Shown here one piece after another: positions 8,188 to 42,835 of a stretch of DNA of 42,874 nt. Positions within the stretch are counted from its first letter, which is position 1; every line of letters starts with the position of its first letter. The stretch is from NCBI GenBank assembly GCA_945877505.1, contig CAMDWT010000011.1, positions 1 through 42,874 on the forward strand, read 5' to 3'. Both the position numbers and the translations under genes were made by a program. The notes under the pieces are model-generated. The model ran no database searches, was not told where the DNA came from, and worked only from the letters and a program-made list of their open reading frames with translations. The stretch comes from Crenothrix polyspora (GTDB lineage Bacteria; Pseudomonadota; Gammaproteobacteria; Methylococcales; Methylomonadaceae).

Positions 8188-10344
8188 ATGAGTGCTCGAC
8201 CTACCTTTAGATTAATGTCATTGACTTTGGTCATGGTCCTTTTTATGTTTAGTTTACTGGCTGTTCGTGAGGCTCAGGCTAATTCTGGCGTTAATGTGGA
8301 TGTCAGTGTTTTTCATGATGCTATGGCACCTTACGGAAACTGGGTGTATCACCGAACTTATGGACGTGTTTGGTATCCCCATAATGTGGGGAGCCAATGG
8401 CGGCCTTATACTGACGGTTACTGGGCGCATACCGATGATTATGGATGGTTATGGGTGTCCAATGAGCCGTGGGGTTGGGCGCCTTATCATTATGGGCGTT
8501 GGGCTTGGGATAATTGGTATGGCTGGCTTTGGGTGCCGGGCCGAACATGGGCGCCTGCTTGGGTGTTTTGGCGTTCAGGAGGTGGTTATGCAGCCTGGGC
8601 ACCTATGCCCCCCAATGTTATGTGGCAATCGGGTGTGGGTTTAAACATAAGTTATTTTAATTATGATCGTGATTTGCGCTGGGATTCTTGGGTGGCTGTG
8701 CGTGAGCGTGAGGTCACTAATCGAAATATTAGTCGACACATCAGGCCGCGTAGTAACAATCGAGAGGTTATTAATGCGACCCATTACACTAATAACGTCA
8801 CCTTAATGAATAAGAGGATTGTTAACCAGGGAATACCCGTTTCTCAAATTGAAGCGGTGACACATCAGCCGGTAATGTCTGTTAAGCCTAAAGTCTACGA
8901 TAGCGTTGAGAGTAATAAAGTGGATCGTCATCATGGCCAGCCCGATATTATTCAGCTTCCTTTGGCGGGAGCTACGCACGCCGAAATACATCAAAATGAA
9001 GAGTTGGCAAGGCGCTTGGATGGGAAAAATGAGGATGGAACTAGAACGGAGTTGCCTTTAGCTGAGTCGGGGTTGTCTGGGCATCATGAGCCTAGAGTGG
9101 CAGGGCGGCTGAAGGATACGGCTAATCATATTCAAGGCCCTTATGTGCCAGTTGAGTCAGCAAGTTTACCTGCAGCGGACGCTATAGTTCAGGAATTACC
9201 ACTAGCAATGAGGCCTGAAAAAAAATTATCAGGACTGGAATTGGATCCGCAACCTATAGTGTCTAAAAGAATTGATGAGCCACAGGGTCTTGGTGTGCTT
9301 GATAAAAACCAGGCCTTGTTACCTATTTCACCTTTAATAACTACCGTCCCTACGCCTATTGAAAATAATCAATCCCCCTTGCTTGTAAACAGTCCGGAAG
9401 TCGATACAACAGTATTGATGCCAGTTAATAAATCGCCAATAGTTACTACTCAACAAGCCTTTGATGGTCAGCCAGTGGAGCAGGTTCAGCGTGAGGTTCA
9501 GCAAAGGCAACAACAGGAAATGGCTGGTCAGCAGGCTTTACAGGCTCAACACCAAGTAGAGCAACAAGCACAGCAAGCGGAGCAGGTTCAACGTGAGGCT
9601 CAACAACAAGTAGAGCAACAACAGGATATGGCCAGTCAGCAGGCGTTACAGGCTCAACAACAAGTAGAGCAACAAGCACAGCAAGCGGAACAGGTTCAGC
9701 ATGAGGTTCAGCAAAGGCAACAACAGGAAATGGCCGGTCAGCAGGCTTTACAGGCTCAACAACAAGTAGAGCAACAAGCGCAGCAAGCGGAACAGGCGCA
9801 ACGTGAGGTTCAGCAAAGGCAACAACAGGAAATGGCTAGTCAGCAGGCGTTTCAGGCTCAGCAACAAGTAGAGCAACAAGCGCAGCAAGCAGAACAGGTG
9901 CAACGTGAGGCTCAGCAAAGGCAACAACAGGAAATGGCTAGTCAGCAAGCGTTACAGGCTCAGCAACAAGTAGAGCAACAAGCGCAGCAAGCGGAGCAGG
10001 CGCAACGTGAGGCTCAGCAAAGGCAACAACAGGAAATGGCTAGTCAGCAGGCGTTTCAGGCTCAGCAACAAGCACAGCAAGCGGAGCAGGCGCAACGTGA
10101 GGCTCAGCAAAGACAACAACAGGAAATGGCTAGTCAGCAGGCGTTTCAGGCTCAGCAACAAGCGCAACAAGCGGAGCAGGCGGAACGTCAGTCTCAGCAA
10201 AGACAACAACAGGAAATGGCTAGTCAGCAGGCGTTTCAGGCTCAGCAGCAAGCACAGCAAGCAGAGCAGGCACAACGTCAGGCTAAGCAAAGACAACAAC
10301 AGGAAATGGCTAGTCAGCAAACGATACAAGCACAACCTCAATAG
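8188..10344 (+). CDS. secreted DUF6600-domain protein with Gln-rich C-terminal tandem repeats
   Basis: A 718-residue protein. The signal peptide covers about the first 32 residues, ending AREAQA-type (VREAQA|N). Residues 40-165 are a Trp/Tyr/Gly/Pro-rich DUF6600 domain: 'LxPYGxWV', 'WRPYTDGYWAHTDDYGW', 'SNEPWGWAPYHYGRW', 'WAPAWVFWRSGGGY' and 'WAPMPP'. Residues 165-430 are low-complexity linker. Residues 431-718 are nine tandem Gln/Ala/Glu repeats of 34-36, then 30 residues. The family is exported and of unknown function, probably envelope-associated. The ATG at 8188 lies after a weak ribosome binding site (the preceding 'TTAGGCTGCC' holds only AGG). The frame appears to continue past the TAG (see separate entry). 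Confidence 0.85.
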   Translation: MSARPTFRLMSLTLVMVLFMFSLLAVREAQANSGVNVDVSVFHDAMAPYGNWVYHRTYGRVWYPHNVGSQWRPYTDGYWAHTDDYGWLWVSNEPWGWAPYHYGRWAWDNWYGWLWVPGRTWAPAWVFWRSGGGYAAWAPMPPNVMWQSGVGLNISYFNYDRDLRWDSWVAVREREVTNRNISRHIRPRSNNREVINATHYTNNVTLMNKRIVNQGIPVSQIEAVTHQPVMSVKPKVYDSVESNKVDRHHGQPDIIQLPLAGATHAEIHQNEELARRLDGKNEDGTRTELPLAESGLSGHHEPRVAGRLKDTANHIQGPYVPVESASLPAADAIVQELPLAMRPEKKLSGLELDPQPIVSKRIDEPQGLGVLDKNQALLPISPLITTVPTPIENNQSPLLVNSPEVDTTVLMPVNKSPIVTTQQAFDGQPVEQVQREVQQRQQQEMAGQQALQAQHQVEQQAQQAEQVQREAQQQVEQQQDMASQQALQAQQQVEQQAQQAEQVQHEVQQRQQQEMAGQQALQAQQQVEQQAQQAEQAQREVQQRQQQEMASQQAFQAQQQVEQQAQQAEQVQREAQQRQQQEMASQQALQAQQQVEQQAQQAEQAQREAQQRQQQEMASQQAFQAQQQAQQAEQAQREAQQRQQQEMASQQAFQAQQQAQQAEQAERQSQQRQQQEMASQQAFQAQQQAQQAEQAQRQAKQRQQQEMASQQTIQAQPQ
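9478..10341 (+). repeat. tandem repeat coding for Gln-rich coiled coil
   Basis: Nine in-frame units start with codons for EQ(V/A)QRE. Unit lengths in residues are 34, 36, 34, 34, 34, 30, 30, 30 and 26. Units 6 to 8 lack the VEQQ block (12 bases), so the array shows a shift from a 102-base to a 90-base unit. Unit 2 carries an aberrant QQQVEQQQD segment. The near-identity of neighbouring units indicates recent expansion by slippage or unequal recombination, and unit number is likely variable between strains. The DNA is CAG/CAA-rich, which produces long antisense Leu-rich open frames that are not genes. Confidence 0.95.
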
Positions 10345-34456: not shown

Positions 34457-37400
34457 ATGAATTTAACGGACATTTCGACTGGGCTTGGGAGTCAAAAGCA
34501 ATCGGAAGAATTGCAACACATCAATCTGCAATTAGCGGCCTTAGGCCAACCTACTTGTGAAGTTGAAGGCGATCAACACTATCTCAAGTTTGCCGATAGT
34601 TTATTAAAGAATTATTCTCAGCAACGTCGTTTATTGGCTAAGTATCGTTGCCCATCTGATGAACGTATTCAAAATTTCCTAAACACATATCTGCTCGATA
34701 ACGGCTTAGATACTGTTATCAGTTTGCCCGGAGAAACCTTTGTATTAGAACGTAAGGGCTTGGCTAGAGAGTTGTCACTACCTTTTCAAGAGAATGAATT
34801 TCATTCTGCCTACATTGATTCTTATCGGATGCATCAGGGCGTCTTACATAATCCACAAAATGATCGTCGCACGACTAAAGGCGTATTTCATATAGCGGCG
34901 GGTGGACTTCCTGTCCCTGCCGATAAGAATGAAGTGCCTGTTAAGGCTTATGCTGAATTATTACGTATCGCACTGTCACCGCCTGACGATTTATTATGCC
35001 TACCTTTTACCAGTAAACAAGACAGCTCTGCAAAGCTTTGGTTGTCGTTATCGCTGAGTCCCATTGTCGCTCCAGAAGTTAAAGGCTTAAGTGCTAAAAA
35101 AATCATGGAAACGCGATTTTTTGCGCCAGGCGGTTTAGTGGCTAATTTGGATTTTGTAGAGTCTATTTTTGGTAATGCGGGTGACCCGTATTTACCTGAA
35201 AATGATGCCGCGTTAGATATTGATCACTGGACGGGACATACCGGTTGTATCATTCTGGCGCCCCATTTGGTGTTATGTCGAAAAAAGGCTATCGGCCTCC
35301 CACACTATGACGATGCCACGATACGTGAACGCAAAGATGGCATGTGCTGGCATAATGAAGACGATCTTTATAATGACGGCAAACCTTTCAAATTAGTCTG
35401 CCGTAATATGCAGGGTGTGATTGTTACATTGATTGCTGACAATTATTTTGGTTATAGTAAAAAAGAAATTAAGTCTCAGATTAGTTACTCGGCTAATTTA
35501 TTTGGTGGTTGTGAAGAAGAACATTCAGGTGGCGCGCTGGCTTTTTCAAGAGCCATTCTGGGGGAAATTTATTTGCCACAGGATGTTGATAATGATGTAT
35601 CCGTTTCTTTTGATAAAGTTAACCAGTTGCTAGCTTCAGCCATAGACGTTAAAGAGGAAGGGTATGCGCTTGATAAAAAATACCCGACTATTGTGTTTAT
35701 TCCAGATACGGCTCAAATTAATATCCAGCAGCTACAGATTAGTTGGTTTTTGGAAGGTAAGCTACAAACCAAAAAACTGTTGATTGATCATTCTTATGTC
35801 TATCCTAATGGCTTTATCGTTAATATGGAACGACATCCTAATGCCCCCAGTTGGCGGTTGGTAGGGACTTATCCTGAAGGCACTTTTTGCCATAAACCCA
35901 GTACAGTCTCGGGCGGTGGTAAATCTGAAATTTCAAAATCAATTGCTGGCGCTGTTATTTATGGCGCTGATTTTGTCGATAATTTTGATAAAGATATGGC
36001 GATGGTTGCCGATATTTTTGAACATGACTATTCAAGTCGTTTTCGAGATTCTGTTCGTAATGGTACAGATCAACGCAGTTTACTCAGCAATAAACGCACC
36101 TTAGGTTCAGTTATTAAGTTGTTAACACCCTCTGTTACCGAATATTCTCATGATTATAATGACTGGTTGAAGAAAATCCCTCAGCATATTTTGGCGCTGG
36201 TGTTAATGATAAAGCGCTTTTACAAAGCGGAGTGGAAGCAAAATTGGCGAGAACATTTCTCGGTTGATTTAGTCAATGGTTATCCGGGTAATGAATTAAA
36301 ATTTGATGGCCGTAAATTGATGGCTAGTTATCTTAGAGTAGGCTTTGATACTAATGGCGCTTGGCGTGTTTTCAAGTTAAGGCAGGACTTTATGGCGTCG
36401 GCTAAAGTTCAATTGGAAGATGATATAACGGCCTCTATTGTTGTACCGGTAAAATCATTAACAGGACTTAACCCTGATTATAATAATTTTAGTGTTAAGT
36501 TAGTTGATAACTGTGAACAAAGTTTCTTTCAACGTCCAGATGACGCCGTGAATAGGGGCTCTGATTTACAAACAGAGCTTGATTTATCGGGCACTGATAA
36601 TTTTATTTCTAACTTTGAGCCGCTTACCCCCAAAGATGCTCGAGAGTTGATGGAAGATGTTATTCATTTTGATGAATTTAGTAAGCCGATGCGAGATGTT
36701 ATTCGGCGAGCGGCGCTAGGTAAGGACGGTGAGTATTTTGTGTCTTCCGCGCATCCACGCTTAGTTGATGATAAACCTAGTTTAAATGTGCGTTATCTGC
36801 AACTTCGGCCAGATATTGTCAATCCCGTTATGCGGTATTTATCTGAAGTGTCAACACGTCTTGCTAGAGGACTTAGGGCTGATCAAGAAGTTCATTTTCC
36901 CGTTAATGCGGTATTAACGGGGCGTCGAAATAATCCCCGTGATAGCAGTGCAGGGATTAGATCATTGGCTATTTATAATCCCATCCATTATCAAGAGTTA
37001 CCAGAACTGTTTATGGATTTTATCTGCAGTTTGACGGGAAAATCACCCTCAACAACGGGTGCGGGCTCTGAAGGAGCCTTGACGAAAGGGCCTTTCAATG
37101 CGCTTTCAACGACTGCGGATTTAAATACGGCGTTAGTCTCTTTTATATTGTGTGGGTATGACGGCTATTCAACGGCGGCTGGTTATATAGGGTCTCAGCG
37201 CAAGATTGATCATGATATTAGTCTGTTGATTCCTGAAATTTGGTCACGCTTACCGGTAAATCAGCGTGATCCACAGTACCTTATCGAGCAGGGACAGTTA
37301 GAGAAACTAGAGGACTTTGAATATAAAGGTAAAACTGTTCATGCGAGTCGCTTGGGATATCGAATTACTGAACGGTTTGTGCATACTAATTTTGGTAAAG

Positions 37401-37897
37401 TCTTTGATTATCCCACGGCTGTATTTGATGAGGCGATGTTGAAGCCGGAAACACAAGACTTGGACAGTTTTGTGGATGGTGTTAACAATGTTTATGAAGC
37501 TCAACAACGGGTTGCTCAGCTTTATTTTCAGGACGGTTCTATTAATGATGCCTGCCCACCGTTAAAAGCCTTGATTCATATTATGGCTGATGGAAGCTTT
37601 GAAGGTAACGTCATTACTGATTCAGCGATTAGGGCTATGTTTACCCGTGAGTATTTGCTTGAAAGTGACTGGTATCATGAGCGTTTACAGATAAAGCAAC
37701 AAAGGGATAGCTTACTTTGGCAACAACACCGTGATTATGTTTTGAAACGGATGAGCGAAATAGAGGAGGCTGATTTACTCAGTCAGGTTCTTGCTGATAA
37801 GTTGGCTAGCGCTAACCGAATGATTGCTGAAGTATCCCAGCCCTCCTATCTTGAAAGTCTAAAAGGAACATTAGGGGCGGATTGGATACATCAGTGA
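34457..37897 (+). CDS. large protein resembling PPi-type phosphoenolpyruvate carboxykinase
   Basis: A 1146-residue cytoplasmic protein (about 130 kDa) with no signal or membrane segment. GGAG precedes ATG 34457. The size matches PPi-dependent PEPCK, which interconverts PEP, CO2 and phosphate with oxaloacetate and pyrophosphate and is about twice as long as GTP/ATP PEPCK. 'TVSGGGKSEISKS' (S485-GGGK489-S) sits like the PEPCK P-loop (SGTGKT). 'HFPVNAVLTGRRNNPR' and 'TTGAGSEGALTKGPFNA' (G868-E872) are the most conserved-looking blocks of the second half. Identification is from memory of the family, without a search; a diverged paralogue is possible. Confidence 0.55.
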   Translation: MNLTDISTGLGSQKQSEELQHINLQLAALGQPTCEVEGDQHYLKFADSLLKNYSQQRRLLAKYRCPSDERIQNFLNTYLLDNGLDTVISLPGETFVLERKGLARELSLPFQENEFHSAYIDSYRMHQGVLHNPQNDRRTTKGVFHIAAGGLPVPADKNEVPVKAYAELLRIALSPPDDLLCLPFTSKQDSSAKLWLSLSLSPIVAPEVKGLSAKKIMETRFFAPGGLVANLDFVESIFGNAGDPYLPENDAALDIDHWTGHTGCIILAPHLVLCRKKAIGLPHYDDATIRERKDGMCWHNEDDLYNDGKPFKLVCRNMQGVIVTLIADNYFGYSKKEIKSQISYSANLFGGCEEEHSGGALAFSRAILGEIYLPQDVDNDVSVSFDKVNQLLASAIDVKEEGYALDKKYPTIVFIPDTAQINIQQLQISWFLEGKLQTKKLLIDHSYVYPNGFIVNMERHPNAPSWRLVGTYPEGTFCHKPSTVSGGGKSEISKSIAGAVIYGADFVDNFDKDMAMVADIFEHDYSSRFRDSVRNGTDQRSLLSNKRTLGSVIKLLTPSVTEYSHDYNDWLKKIPQHILALVLMIKRFYKAEWKQNWREHFSVDLVNGYPGNELKFDGRKLMASYLRVGFDTNGAWRVFKLRQDFMASAKVQLEDDITASIVVPVKSLTGLNPDYNNFSVKLVDNCEQSFFQRPDDAVNRGSDLQTELDLSGTDNFISNFEPLTPKDARELMEDVIHFDEFSKPMRDVIRRAALGKDGEYFVSSAHPRLVDDKPSLNVRYLQLRPDIVNPVMRYLSEVSTRLARGLRADQEVHFPVNAVLTGRRNNPRDSSAGIRSLAIYNPIHYQELPELFMDFICSLTGKSPSTTGAGSEGALTKGPFNALSTTADLNTALVSFILCGYDGYSTAAGYIGSQRKIDHDISLLIPEIWSRLPVNQRDPQYLIEQGQLEKLEDFEYKGKTVHASRLGYRITERFVHTNFGKVFDYPTAVFDEAMLKPETQDLDSFVDGVNNVYEAQQRVAQLYFQDGSINDACPPLKALIHIMADGSFEGNVITDSAIRAMFTREYLLESDWYHERLQIKQQRDSLLWQQHRDYVLKRMSEIEEADLLSQVLADKLASANRMIAEVSQPSYLESLKGTLGADWIHQ

Positions 37898-37970: not shown

Positions 37971-38636
37971 ATGCCTGCTTTACAATCGCCTACTGTTTTA
38001 AATCCAGCCATTGAAAATTATATGGGAGGACTTTTAAATCATTTTGATAACACGGTTCTGATAGAGATGGAATTGTTGGCGCAAAAGAATAATTTCCCTA
38101 TTGTCGGCCGTTTGGTGGGTGTTTTTTTAGAAACACTGGCAAAAATGATTAATGCCAAACGTGTTTTTGAGTTTGGTAGCGGTTATGGATATTCTGCTTA
38201 TTGGTTTGCTAGAGCGGTAGGGCCTTCGGGGCAAGTGCATTGCAGTGAAGCCGATTTTCTTAATAAAGATAGGGCTGAGGGATACTTAAGCGCAGTCGAT
38301 TTATGGGACAGAATTGATTTTAAAGCGGGTATGGCCCAAGCTATTTTTAACCAAACGGACGGCTTATTTGATATTTGTTATAACGATGTTGATAAAGGAG
38401 ATTATCCAGAGATATGGTTATTGGCTAAAGATCGAATTCGTCCTGGAGGGCTTTATATTGCCGATAATGTACTGTGGCGTGGAAGGGTTGCGGCTAAACA
38501 GTCTGCTGATGTATTTCCAGGGTGGACAGAGGCAATCCGAGAGCATAACCAATTGATTTTTAATGATCCTGACTTTGACACTTTTATTAATCCAACACGT
38601 GATGGGGTAATAGTGGCGCGCAGGAAAACAGACTAA
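37971..38636 (+). CDS. O-methyltransferase family 3 (SAM-dependent)
   Basis: A 221-residue protein with a strong AAGGA ribosome binding site. The family pattern is: N-terminal cap helices ending in 'LVGVFLETLAKMINAKRVFEFGSGYGYSAYWFARA' (SAM-binding G-S-G-Y-G), acidic 'CSEAD', metal-binding type 'CYNDVDKGDYPEIW', and 'RPGGLYIADNVLWRGRVA'. The last motif is diagnostic for COMT-like, divalent-cation-dependent O-methyltransferases. The substrate is unknown. It lies 26 bases before the RelA-like gene and is probably cotranscribed with it. Confidence 0.88.
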   Translation: MPALQSPTVLNPAIENYMGGLLNHFDNTVLIEMELLAQKNNFPIVGRLVGVFLETLAKMINAKRVFEFGSGYGYSAYWFARAVGPSGQVHCSEADFLNKDRAEGYLSAVDLWDRIDFKAGMAQAIFNQTDGLFDICYNDVDKGDYPEIWLLAKDRIRPGGLYIADNVLWRGRVAAKQSADVFPGWTEAIREHNQLIFNDPDFDTFINPTRDGVIVARRKTD

Positions 38637-38662
38637 AAAACAGCCAAATAGGTAAATTGAAG

Positions 38663-40159
38663 ATGCCATTAAACTCATCAAGTCAGGAATTACATCATCA
38701 GATTTTCGGTTCAATTCTCGATAGGGCAGAAATAAGTCCATATTTATTATTGTCAGCCAATGACTATCAAACAGCCCTTAAACAGGCGACGAAAATGATG
38801 AATAATCGGGGTTTTGATGTTGTTGATGAGGGTAGTGAGCTGCAAGAAAGCGAACAAGAAAGAGCGAAAAATTACGTCAACCGAACTTATCGTTATTTCT
38901 TTAATTGGCTTTTCCCGTTTGTTAAAACCCAACTTGAAGGGTTGCGAACTCTAAACTCTAATAATAGTGATCTTTACCAGCTCAGTTTGGAAGCAATTCG
39001 ACACGTTGAGTTAATCTTGAATAATCCCACGTTTCAAACGATAGTCTGTCAAGATCCACGACACCTTTTTTTACTGGCCTCTTCAGGAAAATATCCAACT
39101 GTTTTTCATGGCTACCAAGATAAGAATTGGGAGGTTCCTGTGGCATGGCAGCAAACCGCTTGTTCTATGCTAAAGATGGGTTATTTAATAAAATCCATTG
39201 AGGAAGAAAGCCAAGATATTAATGATTATGCTCAATTGGGTCATTTTTTGGAAACCAAAAATCAAAATCTTGATGATCTCTTTAATTATGATTGGCAAAA
39301 TCCAAAATACATTCCGTCCAGTGAGTCGGCTCAAAATGCCTTTGTTAAAATATCCTCTTTTTTTCATAAACTTAAAGAGTCTATAACAGTCGATAAGCAA
39401 AATAACTGGTTTGTTTTTGATAGTGGTGATGGTGTTAAGGTTAACATTAGTGAAATAAAAGCTAGATTAAAAAGTCCTGAAAGTATGGTCACTAAGTTAG
39501 GGAAAGATTTAGAGGGTGAGGCTTATGACATTAGGGATATTCTCGCGATTACTTTTATATTGAAAGACAAGGATGATACCTTAAAGCTGTTTCATGCTTT
39601 GCAAAAGAAAGGCGTTATTCTTCAAGAAAACACCAACTCTCAATCGATAACACAAACACTTTTCGATGCGCCAGAAAGTATGATTGAAGCCGTTAGACGA
39701 TTAATGGTTAGTCTCTCAAAAAGTGCCGGACAGGAAGAAATATCGACCGAGCAAGAGCTGCTTGCAAATGCCAGAACTTTCTATGAAGCACTGAGTATGA
39801 ACGCAGAAAAGAACCAGTATTCGTCACTTGGGCATCGAAAGTTTCAATGTAAAATAAGCTTTTCCTTGCCCATCCACAGAGACGCTAAAACGCATAAGAT
39901 TATGATTCCGGGCACGCCTGTCTATGCACGCAGAAATGAGATCGATAAGAAAACACAGGAACATACCTTAGGCGTGGAATTACGTATTTCTGATGAAGAA
40001 AGTTGGTGTGCCTCTGAGTATAAAGGAGATTCCCACCATGACGCTTATAAGTTTAGGCAATTAGTCTCGGTGATGAACCGCGTTTTCAAAAATGTATTTA
40101 ACATGCCTAAAGACACTATTGTGCAATTAAAAAAAGATCAGTCGATACTTTTCTCATAG
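38663..40159 (+). CDS. divergent RelA/SpoT-type synthetase-domain protein
   Basis: A 498-residue soluble protein (ATG 38663; a TTG two codons upstream is possible). Residues 1-245 are helical, without a recognisable HD hydrolase motif. From about 265 the spacing of the RelA/SpoT synthetase is kept. 'ARLKSPESMVTK' matches R.K...S...K of GRPKHIYSIYRK, and 'YDIRDILAITF' places D292 like the Mg-binding Asp. 'YSSLGH' (Y386) matches the G-loop Y.S.H, 'GVELRI' (E439, R441) matches EVQIRT, and 'SEYKGDSHHDAYKFRQ' matches AEYG.AAHW.YK. Deviations: T at the IR arginine. It resembles the TIGR04552/TIGR04562 hypothetical families. Activity untested; nucleotide pyrophosphokinase is inferred. It ends 12 bases from convergent nasA. 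Confidence 0.65.
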   Translation: MPLNSSSQELHHQIFGSILDRAEISPYLLLSANDYQTALKQATKMMNNRGFDVVDEGSELQESEQERAKNYVNRTYRYFFNWLFPFVKTQLEGLRTLNSNNSDLYQLSLEAIRHVELILNNPTFQTIVCQDPRHLFLLASSGKYPTVFHGYQDKNWEVPVAWQQTACSMLKMGYLIKSIEEESQDINDYAQLGHFLETKNQNLDDLFNYDWQNPKYIPSSESAQNAFVKISSFFHKLKESITVDKQNNWFVFDSGDGVKVNISEIKARLKSPESMVTKLGKDLEGEAYDIRDILAITFILKDKDDTLKLFHALQKKGVILQENTNSQSITQTLFDAPESMIEAVRRLMVSLSKSAGQEEISTEQELLANARTFYEALSMNAEKNQYSSLGHRKFQCKISFSLPIHRDAKTHKIMIPGTPVYARRNEIDKKTQEHTLGVELRISDEESWCASEYKGDSHHDAYKFRQLVSVMNRVFKNVFNMPKDTIVQLKKDQSILFS

Positions 40160-40171
40160 TGCTAGTGATTT

Positions 40172-42835
40172 TTAACACATTAACAGGGCTTTTATTTCAG
40201 ATATACATGATCCACAATTAGTGCCTGCTTTAAGATGGGATCCCACTTCGTGATGCGTTTTTAAATTTTTTTCTTTGATCGCTGTTCGTAGGGTTTTTTC
40301 GCCTACATTGAAACAAGCACAGATAATATCGCCAACATCAATAACACCAATGGGAGGCAATCCCAATAGTAATGTCTTACGTTCATTTATATCGGGTGTC
40401 ATTTCAAAAAGACTGCTTAACCAAGCGCGTCCACGAAGCGTGTTATCGGCACTGATAAAAATGACGGTTTCTAATTGATTTTTAATAAATTGTGCGGCTC
40501 TGTAGTTACCTTTTCGAGGATCTTTATAGTCTTGCCATTCTGAGTTTTCGAAAACTGCATTGCAGAAATTTTCTTGGATATAGTCGGACCAATCTTCAGG
40601 ATTTGTCTCTCCGGCCAGTTCATAGCGATAAAATTGTTCACCCTTTATTTTAACGTGATATTCAGGACCCTTAATCGTCAGTTCGTGGCGTGATAAGATA
40701 AAACCTTGCCAAATAGGTGTATAGGCTTTTATTTGAACCGGCGTGTGTTTACTTTCTGGTTGCTTAGAGAGTGGATCAACCACGGGATTGATTAAGGCGC
40801 CCATGCGCCCTTGGCTGGCGAATTGTTCGGTCCAATGCATCGGTACAAACAGGTTACCTTGTTGCTGGCTATCAGTAATTTGTATGCGAGCCATCATTGA
40901 GCCCCATGGGCTTTCGATAACAGCTAAGGTGTTGGGGGACAATGCGTAGTGCTGAGCATCAAAAGGATGGACTTCGACAAAAGGTTCAGGTCTATGTTGA
41001 TTTAATTTGGTAGCGAGAGCAGTCCGGGTCATGGTATGCCACTGATCCCGATAGCGACCGGTATTTAGAATCAAGGGATAGTTTGTATCGGGAAGATTAA
41101 CCGGTTGTCGAGGTTCTATCGCAATAAATTGAGCTTTGCCGGATTTAGTGAAAAATTGACCATCCTCAAAAAAACGGGCTCTGCCTTGAGGGTAAGCTTT
41201 ATTAACGGGCCATTGAATGGGTTGTAGACGATCATAATCATGCTGGCTGATTTCAGCGAGTGCCGAGATGTCAAAATCACGAAGTCCTTGTTGGTGATTA
41301 TTTTCAAAACCTGAAAGGGCGGCATGTTCACGAAAAATGTCACAGGGATGTTGGTAATTAAAGGCCTGCTTATAGCCCATGTATTGAGCCACTTGGCTAA
41401 TAATCCACCAGTCTGGTTTAGCGTCGCCGGCTTGACTGAATAGTGCGCGTTGACGTGAGATACGTCGTTCAGAATTAGTGACAGTGCCATTTTTTTCGCT
41501 CCAACCTTGTGCAGGTAGCAAAACATGCGCAAAGGCCGTTGTATCCGTCTTAGCAATGCAATCTGAAACGACCACAAACTCGCAATGCTGTAAAGCATCC
41601 TTTATTTTGTTGGCATTAGGCATGCTAACGACGGGGTTTGTGCCCATAATCCAAACGGCTTTTACTTTTCCGTCAGCAAGGGCGTCAAATAAATCGACAG
41701 CGGTAAGCCCCGGTTTTTTAGCTAGGGTTTCTGTTTTCCAAAAACGTGCGACTCGCTCTACGTCGGCACTATTCGAAAAATCCATATGTGCAGCTAATTG
41801 ATTAGCTAAACCGCCAACTTCTCTGCCGCCCATCGCATTGGGCTGGCCGGTTAATGAGAAAGGTCCCATGCCCGGTTTCCCCAATTTTCCAGTAGCTAGA
41901 TGGCAATTAATAATGGCATTGACTTTATCGGTGCCCGATGAGGATTGATTAATCCCCTGACTGTAAAGGCTCATCACTTTTTCTTTACTGGCAAAGGCTT
42001 CATAAAACCCCAGTACGTCTTTTAAGGCTAGATTACATAATCTTGCAACCTGTTCAATAGCGTAGCTACTGGCAGTCTTAAGCGCTTCGGAAACGCCTTC
42101 AGTATGGGCGTTGATATAGGTATTATTGAGCACATTATTCTGACTTAGAAAGTGTAGGAGCCCATTAAATAAAACGGCATCACTCCCACTAGCTAGGGGT
42201 AAATGGAGGTCGGCAATATCGCAAGTAGCTGTTTTTCGGGGATCAATAACCACCACTTTTAAATCGGGGTTAGCTTCTTTTGCTGCCCGGATACGCTGAA
42301 AAATGACGGGGTGACACCAAGCAGCATTAGAGCCGATTAGAATAATGAGTTCAGCGTGTTCAAAATCATCATAACAACCCGGAACGGTATCGGAGCCAAA
42401 AGCGCGTTTGTGACCCACCACAGAAGAAGCCATACATAAACGACTATTAGTGTCTATATTACCGCTGCCGATAAAGCCTTTCATTAGCTTATTGGCGACA
42501 TAATAATCTTCTGTTAACAATTGCCCAGACCCATAAATTGCGACAGCATCAGGACCATGGTCCTTAATGATTTTAATAAAGGTATCAGCAACAAGGCGCA
42601 GGGCTTCAGGCCACGAACTGTCAAGGCCATAGATTTTAGGATGGAGTAGGCGGCCGTTTAATTCAAGAGTGTCAGCGAGTGCAGAGCCTTTTGAGCAAAG
42701 ACGACCCAAGTTAGCAGGATGGGAGGTATCACCCTTAATGCTGACCTGGTGATTTTTATCACTGGCAGTTGCGGTAATACCGCATCCGACACCGCAGTAG
42801 GGGCAAGTGGTTTGTATGATCGTTTGGTCAGTCAT
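40172..42835 (-). CDS. nasA: assimilatory nitrate reductase catalytic subunit
   Basis: An 887-residue molybdoenzyme. The N-terminal [4Fe-4S] ligands are C11, C14, C18 and C47 (CPYCGVGC ... CSKG). 'SRLCMASSVVG' gives C134 as the probable Mo ligand. 'NPVVSMPNANKI' belongs to the molybdopterin domain, and a molydopterin dinucleotide-binding domain follows at roughly residues 590-705. The C-terminal BFD-like [2Fe-2S] domain holds C839, C841, C874 and C877. It has no Tat or Sec signal, so it is cytoplasmic and reduces nitrate to nitrite for nitrogen assimilation. Electron donor genes would lie to the right, beyond the window. There is no clear ribosome binding site in the 39 bases upstream. Confidence 0.93.
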   Translation of the reverse strand: MTDQTIIQTTCPYCGVGCGITATASDKNHQVSIKGDTSHPANLGRLCSKGSALADTLELNGRLLHPKIYGLDSSWPEALRLVADTFIKIIKDHGPDAVAIYGSGQLLTEDYYVANKLMKGFIGSGNIDTNSRLCMASSVVGHKRAFGSDTVPGCYDDFEHAELIILIGSNAAWCHPVIFQRIRAAKEANPDLKVVVIDPRKTATCDIADLHLPLASGSDAVLFNGLLHFLSQNNVLNNTYINAHTEGVSEALKTASSYAIEQVARLCNLALKDVLGFYEAFASKEKVMSLYSQGINQSSSGTDKVNAIINCHLATGKLGKPGMGPFSLTGQPNAMGGREVGGLANQLAAHMDFSNSADVERVARFWKTETLAKKPGLTAVDLFDALADGKVKAVWIMGTNPVVSMPNANKIKDALQHCEFVVVSDCIAKTDTTAFAHVLLPAQGWSEKNGTVTNSERRISRQRALFSQAGDAKPDWWIISQVAQYMGYKQAFNYQHPCDIFREHAALSGFENNHQQGLRDFDISALAEISQHDYDRLQPIQWPVNKAYPQGRARFFEDGQFFTKSGKAQFIAIEPRQPVNLPDTNYPLILNTGRYRDQWHTMTRTALATKLNQHRPEPFVEVHPFDAQHYALSPNTLAVIESPWGSMMARIQITDSQQQGNLFVPMHWTEQFASQGRMGALINPVVDPLSKQPESKHTPVQIKAYTPIWQGFILSRHELTIKGPEYHVKIKGEQFYRYELAGETNPEDWSDYIQENFCNAVFENSEWQDYKDPRKGNYRAAQFIKNQLETVIFISADNTLRGRAWLSSLFEMTPDINERKTLLLGLPPIGVIDVGDIICACFNVGEKTLRTAIKEKNLKTHHEVGSHLKAGTNCGSCISEIKALLMC

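Follow-up and report, generated by a model that had tools for sequence, protein, structure and literature searches.

The gene at positions 38663-40159 of the analysed stretch of Crenothrix polyspora DNA (hereafter the window, 42,874 nucleotides in all) is real, conserved and under selection, and the conserved protein, as read from alignments, is a divergent relative of the RelA/SpoT-type synthetases (SYNTH) with altered base sites. Its homology to SYNTH domains is well supported through TIGR04562 as a stepping stone, because the window protein matches TIGR04562, TIGR04562 in turn matches PF04607, and a deep Pfam model adds to this bridge. With slightly more confidence than doubt, we presume that the protein is an active SYNTH nucleotide pyrophosphokinase with re-tooled base sites and a non-assigned acceptor and, jointly with this, that it represents a branch related to, yet outside, TIGR04552/TIGR04562. 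The gene and its main parts are as follows.

38663-40159, forward strand: open reading frame of the 498-aa protein with the divergent RelA/SpoT-type synthetase domain (ORF call, homologues, dN/dS).
38663-39382, forward strand: N-terminal part (residues 1-240), for which chiefly helices are predicted (AlphaFold2 blocks; no family match).
39353-40090, forward strand: SYNTH-like region, residues 231-476 (TIGR04562, E 1.8e-19, model positions 128-356 of 356).

The reading frame begins with ATG at 38663 and stops at 40159 (the mechanical start, TTG at 38657, would add two residues), and an AGG lies 10 bases 5' of the ATG. Met occupies this position in 24 of the 30 distinct sequences, window included, some of the non-Met sequences having been trimmed to where the BLAST match begins. 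Besides its host genome G000 (2.46 Mb, 126 contigs), the gene was present in 30 of the 199 other genomes searched with 64-85% identity (31/200 with its own), and the carriers belong to 4 of 55 genera, 24 of the 35 genomes of its own genus being positive, own included. Nine related loci among genome contigs, found by a scan that reaches close relatives only, were from Methylobacter, Methylococcaceae or Methylococcales. Alignment A1 comprised 15 sequences, window included, picked from 43 frames with many duplicates, and the key residues were checked in all 30 distinct sequences, drawn from 59 frames. Against the nearest A1 member, dN was 0.091 and dS 1.519 (NG86, whole gene), with dN of 0.117 in the N-terminal half and 0.066 in the C-terminal half. 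Among 14 pairs, dN was far below dS in the 3 with computable whole-gene dS, the other 11 being saturated, and dN of the C-terminal half was lower than that of the N-terminal half in 14/14. Invariant A1 columns made up 72% of residues 258-300, 77% of residues 301-335 and 67% of residues 434-466, and lower fractions of residues 31-130 (30%), 336-383 (38%) and 467-498 (28%).

The window protein passes no curated profile cut-off. Its nearest named relatives are, as the initial annotation had supposed, TIGR families of unknown function: NCBIfam TIGR04562 (70.2 bits, E 1.8e-19, curated cut-off of 140 not reached) and TIGR04552 (67.6 bits, E 1.2e-18, curated cut-off of 125 not reached, positions 130-352 of 352), both models being aligned to their last position and both matching 15/15 A1 members. 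The top Pfam family was RelA_SpoT (PF04607) with 18.4-18.5 bits, below the 27-bit gathering score (E 0.0025-0.0026); the match spans residues 268-321, corresponding to the first half of the model, and the family was matched at E<=1 by 15/15 A1 members (best 3.6e-4). Residues 385-498 alone gave no Pfam match. Five TIGR04562 proteins (L040, L060-L063), all encoded in genomes of the same class as the window, formed profile A2 and were the only TIGR04552/TIGR04562 members in the alignments. All five matched RelA_SpoT at E<=1; L040 covered model positions 3-112 of 113 and, at 28.2 bits, exceeded the cut-off of 27, with 30.8 bits in the genome search, neighbours in frame included. The sole PDB match below 0.01 for the profile of these five was 3l9d, a 'putative GTP pyrophosphokinase' (E 0.0016), and hhalign joined A1 with A2 at a probability of 93.1 (E 3.2e-7, A1 columns 259-476).

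The failed small-profile tests count against a direct SYNTH claim. Indeed, hhalign against seven RelA/SpoT-type proteins (A4) gave no link for A1 nor for A2, and with a HMMER profile built from the SYNTH part of A4 the window obtained 1.3 bits, under the best window shuffle (5.5 bits, 500 shuffles), and L040 6.8 bits, under the best L040 shuffle (7.7 bits), with L030 at 7.6 bits; of 500 shuffles each, HMMER reported 316 (window) and 388 (L040). The assignment to RelA/SpoT-type synthetases made in the initial annotation was upheld transitively, via TIGR04562, and not by the direct PF04607 score, the A4 profile or hhalign. In a search of 398 genomes of the phylum, TIGR04562 turned up in 2, the window's own among them; it was also found in 5 of 118 relatives of genome G567 and in 1 of 148 relatives of G667 (G667 itself), and the joint profile A5 found only the own genome among 369 genomes of the class. 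In PDB, A5 placed RTT109 chains first (E 0.011) and 3l9d seventh (E 0.084); the weak matches to RTT109 and a GAPDH in PDB and to DUF6175 were taken as chance, as was baeRF_family6, which was matched by 1/15 members only.

For both AlphaFold2 models the input was 10 close sequences (the window and the nine related loci), and both models are too poor to read, with mean pLDDT of 54.1 for the whole protein and 44.3 for the domain (residues 216-498). Foldseek on the whole-protein model returned 92 matches at E<=10 and none at E<=0.001, as expected of a poor model. Blocks within residues 31-140 reached 71-88 pLDDT and were chiefly helices. No Pfam match above cut-off was found in the first 248 residues, and HD, TGS and ACT domains had no Pfam match at E<=10, which agrees with the earlier statements that the first 250 residues resemble nothing familiar and that there is no HD hydrolase. 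MAFFT aligns 'GFD' and 'D.R...L.AS' blocks of the N-terminus with TIGR04562, and the similarity of the two N-termini was not significant (4.5 bits; 4/500 shuffles higher, best 8.1), the best relative's N-terminus giving 6.5 bits. Poor models and negative small-profile tests would suit a protein without any SYNTH domain, whose blocks arose by chance or from another fold; we consider this very unlikely in view of the TIGR04562 match at E 1.8e-19, the one TIGR04562 member above the RelA_SpoT cut-off and the invariant motifs at the right spacing.

Four of the synthetase motifs could be placed in the domain.

39464-39505, forward strand: syn1, R268.K270...S274...K278..K281, putative triphosphate-binding pattern, spaced as R78, K80, S84, K88 and R91 of RelP (PMC5794853, in excerpt).
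39527-39553, forward strand: syn2, D289-I-R-D292-I-L-A-I-T297, with D292 aligned as the Mg aspartate and T297 at the position of the GIR/AVR arginine.
39977-39991, forward strand: syn4, E439-L-R441-I-S443, with Glu kept, Gln changed to Arg and Arg changed to Ser in the alignment.
40025-40051, forward strand: syn5, G455...H459..Y462-K463, putative ribose His and YK, placed by invariance and kept in the five TIGR04562 proteins.

Five RelA/SpoT blocks had been proposed; four of them, R.K...S...K (268-278), DIRDI (289-293), VELR (438-441) and HHDAYK (458-463), were recovered, and the fifth, YSSLGH, was not. R268, K270, S274, K278, K281, D289, D292, A295, T297, E439, R441, S443, H459, Y462 and K463 are invariant in 30/30 distinct sequences, and G455 in 29/30. 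Taken in this order, the blocks R.K...S...K / D..[AG] / E / G...H..YK are present in the protein and occurred in 0 of 200,000 composition shuffles, a count that is illustrative since the pattern was fixed after inspection of the protein; R.K...S...K by itself occurred in 200 of 20,000.

In RelP, R78 and R112 stack on the adenine, K80, K88, R91 and S84 hold the phosphates, H190 binds the ATP ribose, D107 and E174 are the Mg2+ ligands and Y151 is the G-loop Tyr (PMC5794853, in excerpt), and in FaRel2 the adenine is held by R64, R95 and Q147 (PMC11782079, in excerpt). In our mapping, which is based on spacing and the A5 alignment (MAFFT) rather than on structure, R268 would be equivalent to R78, K270 to K80, S274 to S84, K278 to K88, K281 to R91, D292 to D107, T297 to R112, E439 to E174, R441 to Q147 of FaRel2 and H459 to H190. 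Because the mapped residues are invariant in 30/30, the predicted metal, phosphate and ribose ligands are kept while the base-recognition side is changed. The IR arginine had correctly been described as replaced (T297 in 30/30), and the second IR (EVQIR) is changed too (S443 in 30/30). We suggest that Arg441 may substitute for the lost syn2 Arg.

R268, K270, K278, D289, D292, Q395, E439, D444, S447, G455, H459, Y462 and K463 are common to the five aligned TIGR04562 proteins, which differ from the window protein in having Arg for T297, Tyr for H391 and Gln for R441. The window protein has about half the cut-off scores of TIGR04562 and TIGR04552 and 498 residues against 356 and 352 in the models. 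Three residues are kept in TIGR04562, the Arg of syn2, a Tyr and the Gln of syn4 (R192, Y277 and Q307 of L040), so that of the families compared only that of the methanotrophs shows the change. With RelA/SpoT/Rel and the small alarmone synthetases RelP and RelQ the protein shares the syn1 pattern, the putative Mg Asp and Glu, the ribose His and YK, and differs from them in the changed syn2 Arg and syn4 Gln/Arg and in being without Y.S.H; unlike the long RSHs (RelA/SpoT/Rel), it has no HD, TGS or ACT match and its N-terminus has no family match.

The acceptor side falls in two further segments.

39668-39811, forward strand: poorly conserved segment, residues 336-383 (limits ours), in or before the acceptor loop, with 38% invariant columns against 72-77% just before.
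39812-39847, forward strand: proposed part of the acceptor loop, N384-Q395, with H391.K393.Q395 aligned to Y.[SA].Q of TIGR04562.

The YSSLGH block had been read as Y.S.H of Rel. At residue 386, 3/30 sequences have Tyr and 27/30 have His, and Y.S.H occurs in 0/30 sequences of the window family; it is present in 6/7 A4 proteins, the seventh having YRGLH. H391, K393 and Q395 are invariant in 30/30 distinct sequences. The five TIGR04562 proteins carry Y.[SA].Q, on whose Tyr MAFFT sets H391 of the window, and in the alignment TIGR04562 likewise has extra residues at segment 336-383. On the MAFFT reading, the Tyr of TIGR04562 aligned with H391 would be the G-loop Tyr, now His in the window family. 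The one alignment of TIGR04562 with a solved synthetase, 3l9d, instead pairs the G-loop KPSGYRSYH of 3l9d with a TIGR04562 block some 50 residues earlier, KPSRSRN, whose lysine is not kept in the window family (N, A, R or H at residue 325 in the 30 sequences). The acceptor loop thus appears remodelled under either mapping, the exact residue mapping is the least certain part, and our confidence in an active pyrophosphokinase was lowered by a small step because the two mappings conflict. The invariant H391.K393.Q395, with about 48 variable residues before it, would be the likeliest counterpart of Y.S.H, and this loop, the absence of Y.S.H and the variable segment together suggest that the acceptor need not be GDP/GTP.

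These changes bear on two other explanations. The main rival is a catalytically dead SYNTH relative that would bind ATP-Mg or an alarmone without transfer and act as a sensor for the N-terminal half; the loss of the stacking Arg (T297), the absence of Y.S.H and the changed syn4 speak for it. Activity could indeed be lost, because the syn2 Arg, the syn4 Gln/Arg and the KPS lysine are changed and Y.S.H is absent, and the earlier suggestion of a catalytically changed relative is plausible. Dead enzyme relatives, however, usually lose the metal acids and triphosphate ligands first, and here D292, E439 and the residues for the triphosphate do not vary across 30/30 sequences, so that we regard a dead enzyme as unlikely, though worth serious attention. 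The second explanation is an ordinary extra (p)ppGpp synthetase, which would form ppGpp from GDP/GTP and add to RelA and SpoT. It is consistent with the SYNTH homology and with the two long RelA/SpoT-type proteins that the own genome also encodes (L046 and L049, presumably RelA and SpoT by their motifs), whose network the protein could join. The SxH at syn3, described as recognising guanosine (PMC12226406, in excerpt), is missing, Y.S.H being found in 0/30 and K393.Q395 being the best aligned counterpart, and we hold this explanation to be quite improbable.

According to the same excerpted source (PMC12226406), RSHs have AVR at syn2, SxH at syn3 and IR at syn4, and Apk2, the adenosine 3'-pyrophosphokinases of MuF toxins, have RYT, GxN and YH. 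Apk2 resembles the window protein in that Thr replaces the last syn2 Arg (RYT in Apk2, AIT in the window), and this shared Thr hints, by analogy, at a non-guanine acceptor. Apk2 differs in having Arg two residues before this Thr, where the window has Ala295, and in GxN and YH against KxQ (by our alignment) and IS in the window; moreover, the window protein has no match in the phage records searched. Since the Apk2 Arg before the Thr is absent, the window protein fits neither the Apk2 nor the RSH pattern. Swapping syn motifs did not convert a ppApp synthetase into a ppGpp synthetase (PMC12226406, in excerpt). In the literature searched, TIGR04552 occurs in one paper, where it labels a row of a table of mutations (PMC9888234, in excerpt), and no mention of TIGR04562 was found. 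Atkinson et al. 2011 sort RSHs into 30 subgroups (PMC3153485), and the window family was not seen named among these in the part of that paper available to us; among the matches listed by the literature search, no title concerns this protein.

Elsewhere in G000, near the end of contig C8 (L059:1402-2100, reverse strand), a 233-aa frame has a match to phrog_241 (phage head morphogenesis, E 5.4e-7) and a weak one to RelA_SpoT, which at 17.1 bits stays below the cut-off. This frame, whose D-I-L-R-A-T resembles the Apk2 syn2, has the look of a MuF-type prophage toxin's end that carries a domain akin to ppApp synthetases. A 718-aa protein at window positions 8188-10344 has only DUF6600 recognised at E<=1e-5.

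Upstream of the SYNTH gene, two genes on the same strand complete a triplet.

34457-37897, forward strand: PPi-dependent phosphoenolpyruvate carboxykinase (PEPCK), first gene of the triplet (solved structures).
37971-38636, forward strand: O-methyltransferase (PF01596, E 5.9e-23), with its stop 26 bases before the ATG.

Downstream, at 40172-42835 on the reverse strand, lies a convergent molybdopterin oxidoreductase with Fer2_BFD, 12 bases away and nearest to the formate dehydrogenase alpha and assimilatory nitrate reductase models, below their cut-offs. In some relatives whose SYNTH gene is not next to PEPCK, a molybdopterin oxidoreductase also adjoins that gene.

A toxSAS-type toxin of a toxin-antitoxin or secretion system, pyrophosphorylating tRNA or ATP, would be a SYNTH protein without hydrolase, as here, and other SYNTH toxins exist (PMC11782079 and PMC12691689, in excerpt). 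The predicted ATP donor site is a likeness to FaRel2 and other toxSAS proteins; the FaRel2 adenine residues R64, R95 and Q147 (PMC11782079, in excerpt), however, would correspond to R268, T297 and R441 of the window, and no antitoxin gene adjoins in the window. The window leaves no room for one, because the neighbours are 26 bases upstream and 12 bases downstream (the convergent oxidoreductase). In addition, the protein has no PADLOC match and the gene has no match in the phage, plasmid and viral-contig collections, and we judge a toxin to be extremely improbable.

The PEPCK matches the PPi-dependent PEPCK 8e1u (residues 21-1141 of 1146) and AiPEPCK 6k31 (23-1141). It was identified via these solved structures, having no Pfam (E<=10) nor NCBIfam (E<=1) match, and a 51% identical copy is on a Persicobacter plasmid. 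Among the 35 genomes of the own genus, 21 have both PEPCK and the SYNTH gene, 3 the SYNTH gene only, 2 PEPCK only and 9 neither (Fisher p 1.4e-4, a value that overstates the link, given the kinship of the genomes and the incomplete state of several of them). Of the 21 double carriers, 11 have the two genes within 1 kb of each other on a single contig; the remaining 10 have them widely separated or on different contigs, and some neighbours among these may be concealed by breaks between contigs. In other genera, the loci looked at have different neighbours, e.g. a GH57 branching-enzyme gene (L069). In genome G107, a gene for an HD-domain phosphohydrolase (PF01966), which we take to be dGTPase-like, lies just downstream of the SYNTH relative (L073:2153-3532, forward strand).

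For the active pyrophosphokinase that we favour, we propose that the domain takes up ATP-Mg and transfers its beta,gamma-pyrophosphate onto an acceptor hydroxyl, with both base-recognition sites re-tooled. On the donor side the guanidinium may have shifted from strand beta2 (T297) to beta5 (R441), given that the stacking Arg is gone and the Gln position nearby is taken by an Arg. The helical N-terminal half would sense a signal and gate the domain, and product removal may be left to other enzymes, e.g. SpoT. The physiological input could be carbon/PPi status, a guess prompted by the linkage to the PPi-PEPCK. A bolder proposal, which we put forward tentatively and think unlikely to hold in full, is a separate SYNTH lineage with the Arg moved from beta2 to beta5, an invariant H.K.Q in place of Y.S.H in the acceptor loop, next to an inserted variable segment, and a non-(p)ppGpp product (ppApp, or a pyrophosphorylated non-nucleotide or RNA end), linked to the PPi-carbon metabolism of methanotrophs.

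If active, the protein would add a further SYNTH enzyme, with other base-binding residues, to a genome that already encodes two long RelA/SpoT-type proteins. It would then offer a lead to the role of the TIGR04552/TIGR04562 proteins, and its natural variants may show how SYNTH enzymes switch acceptor.
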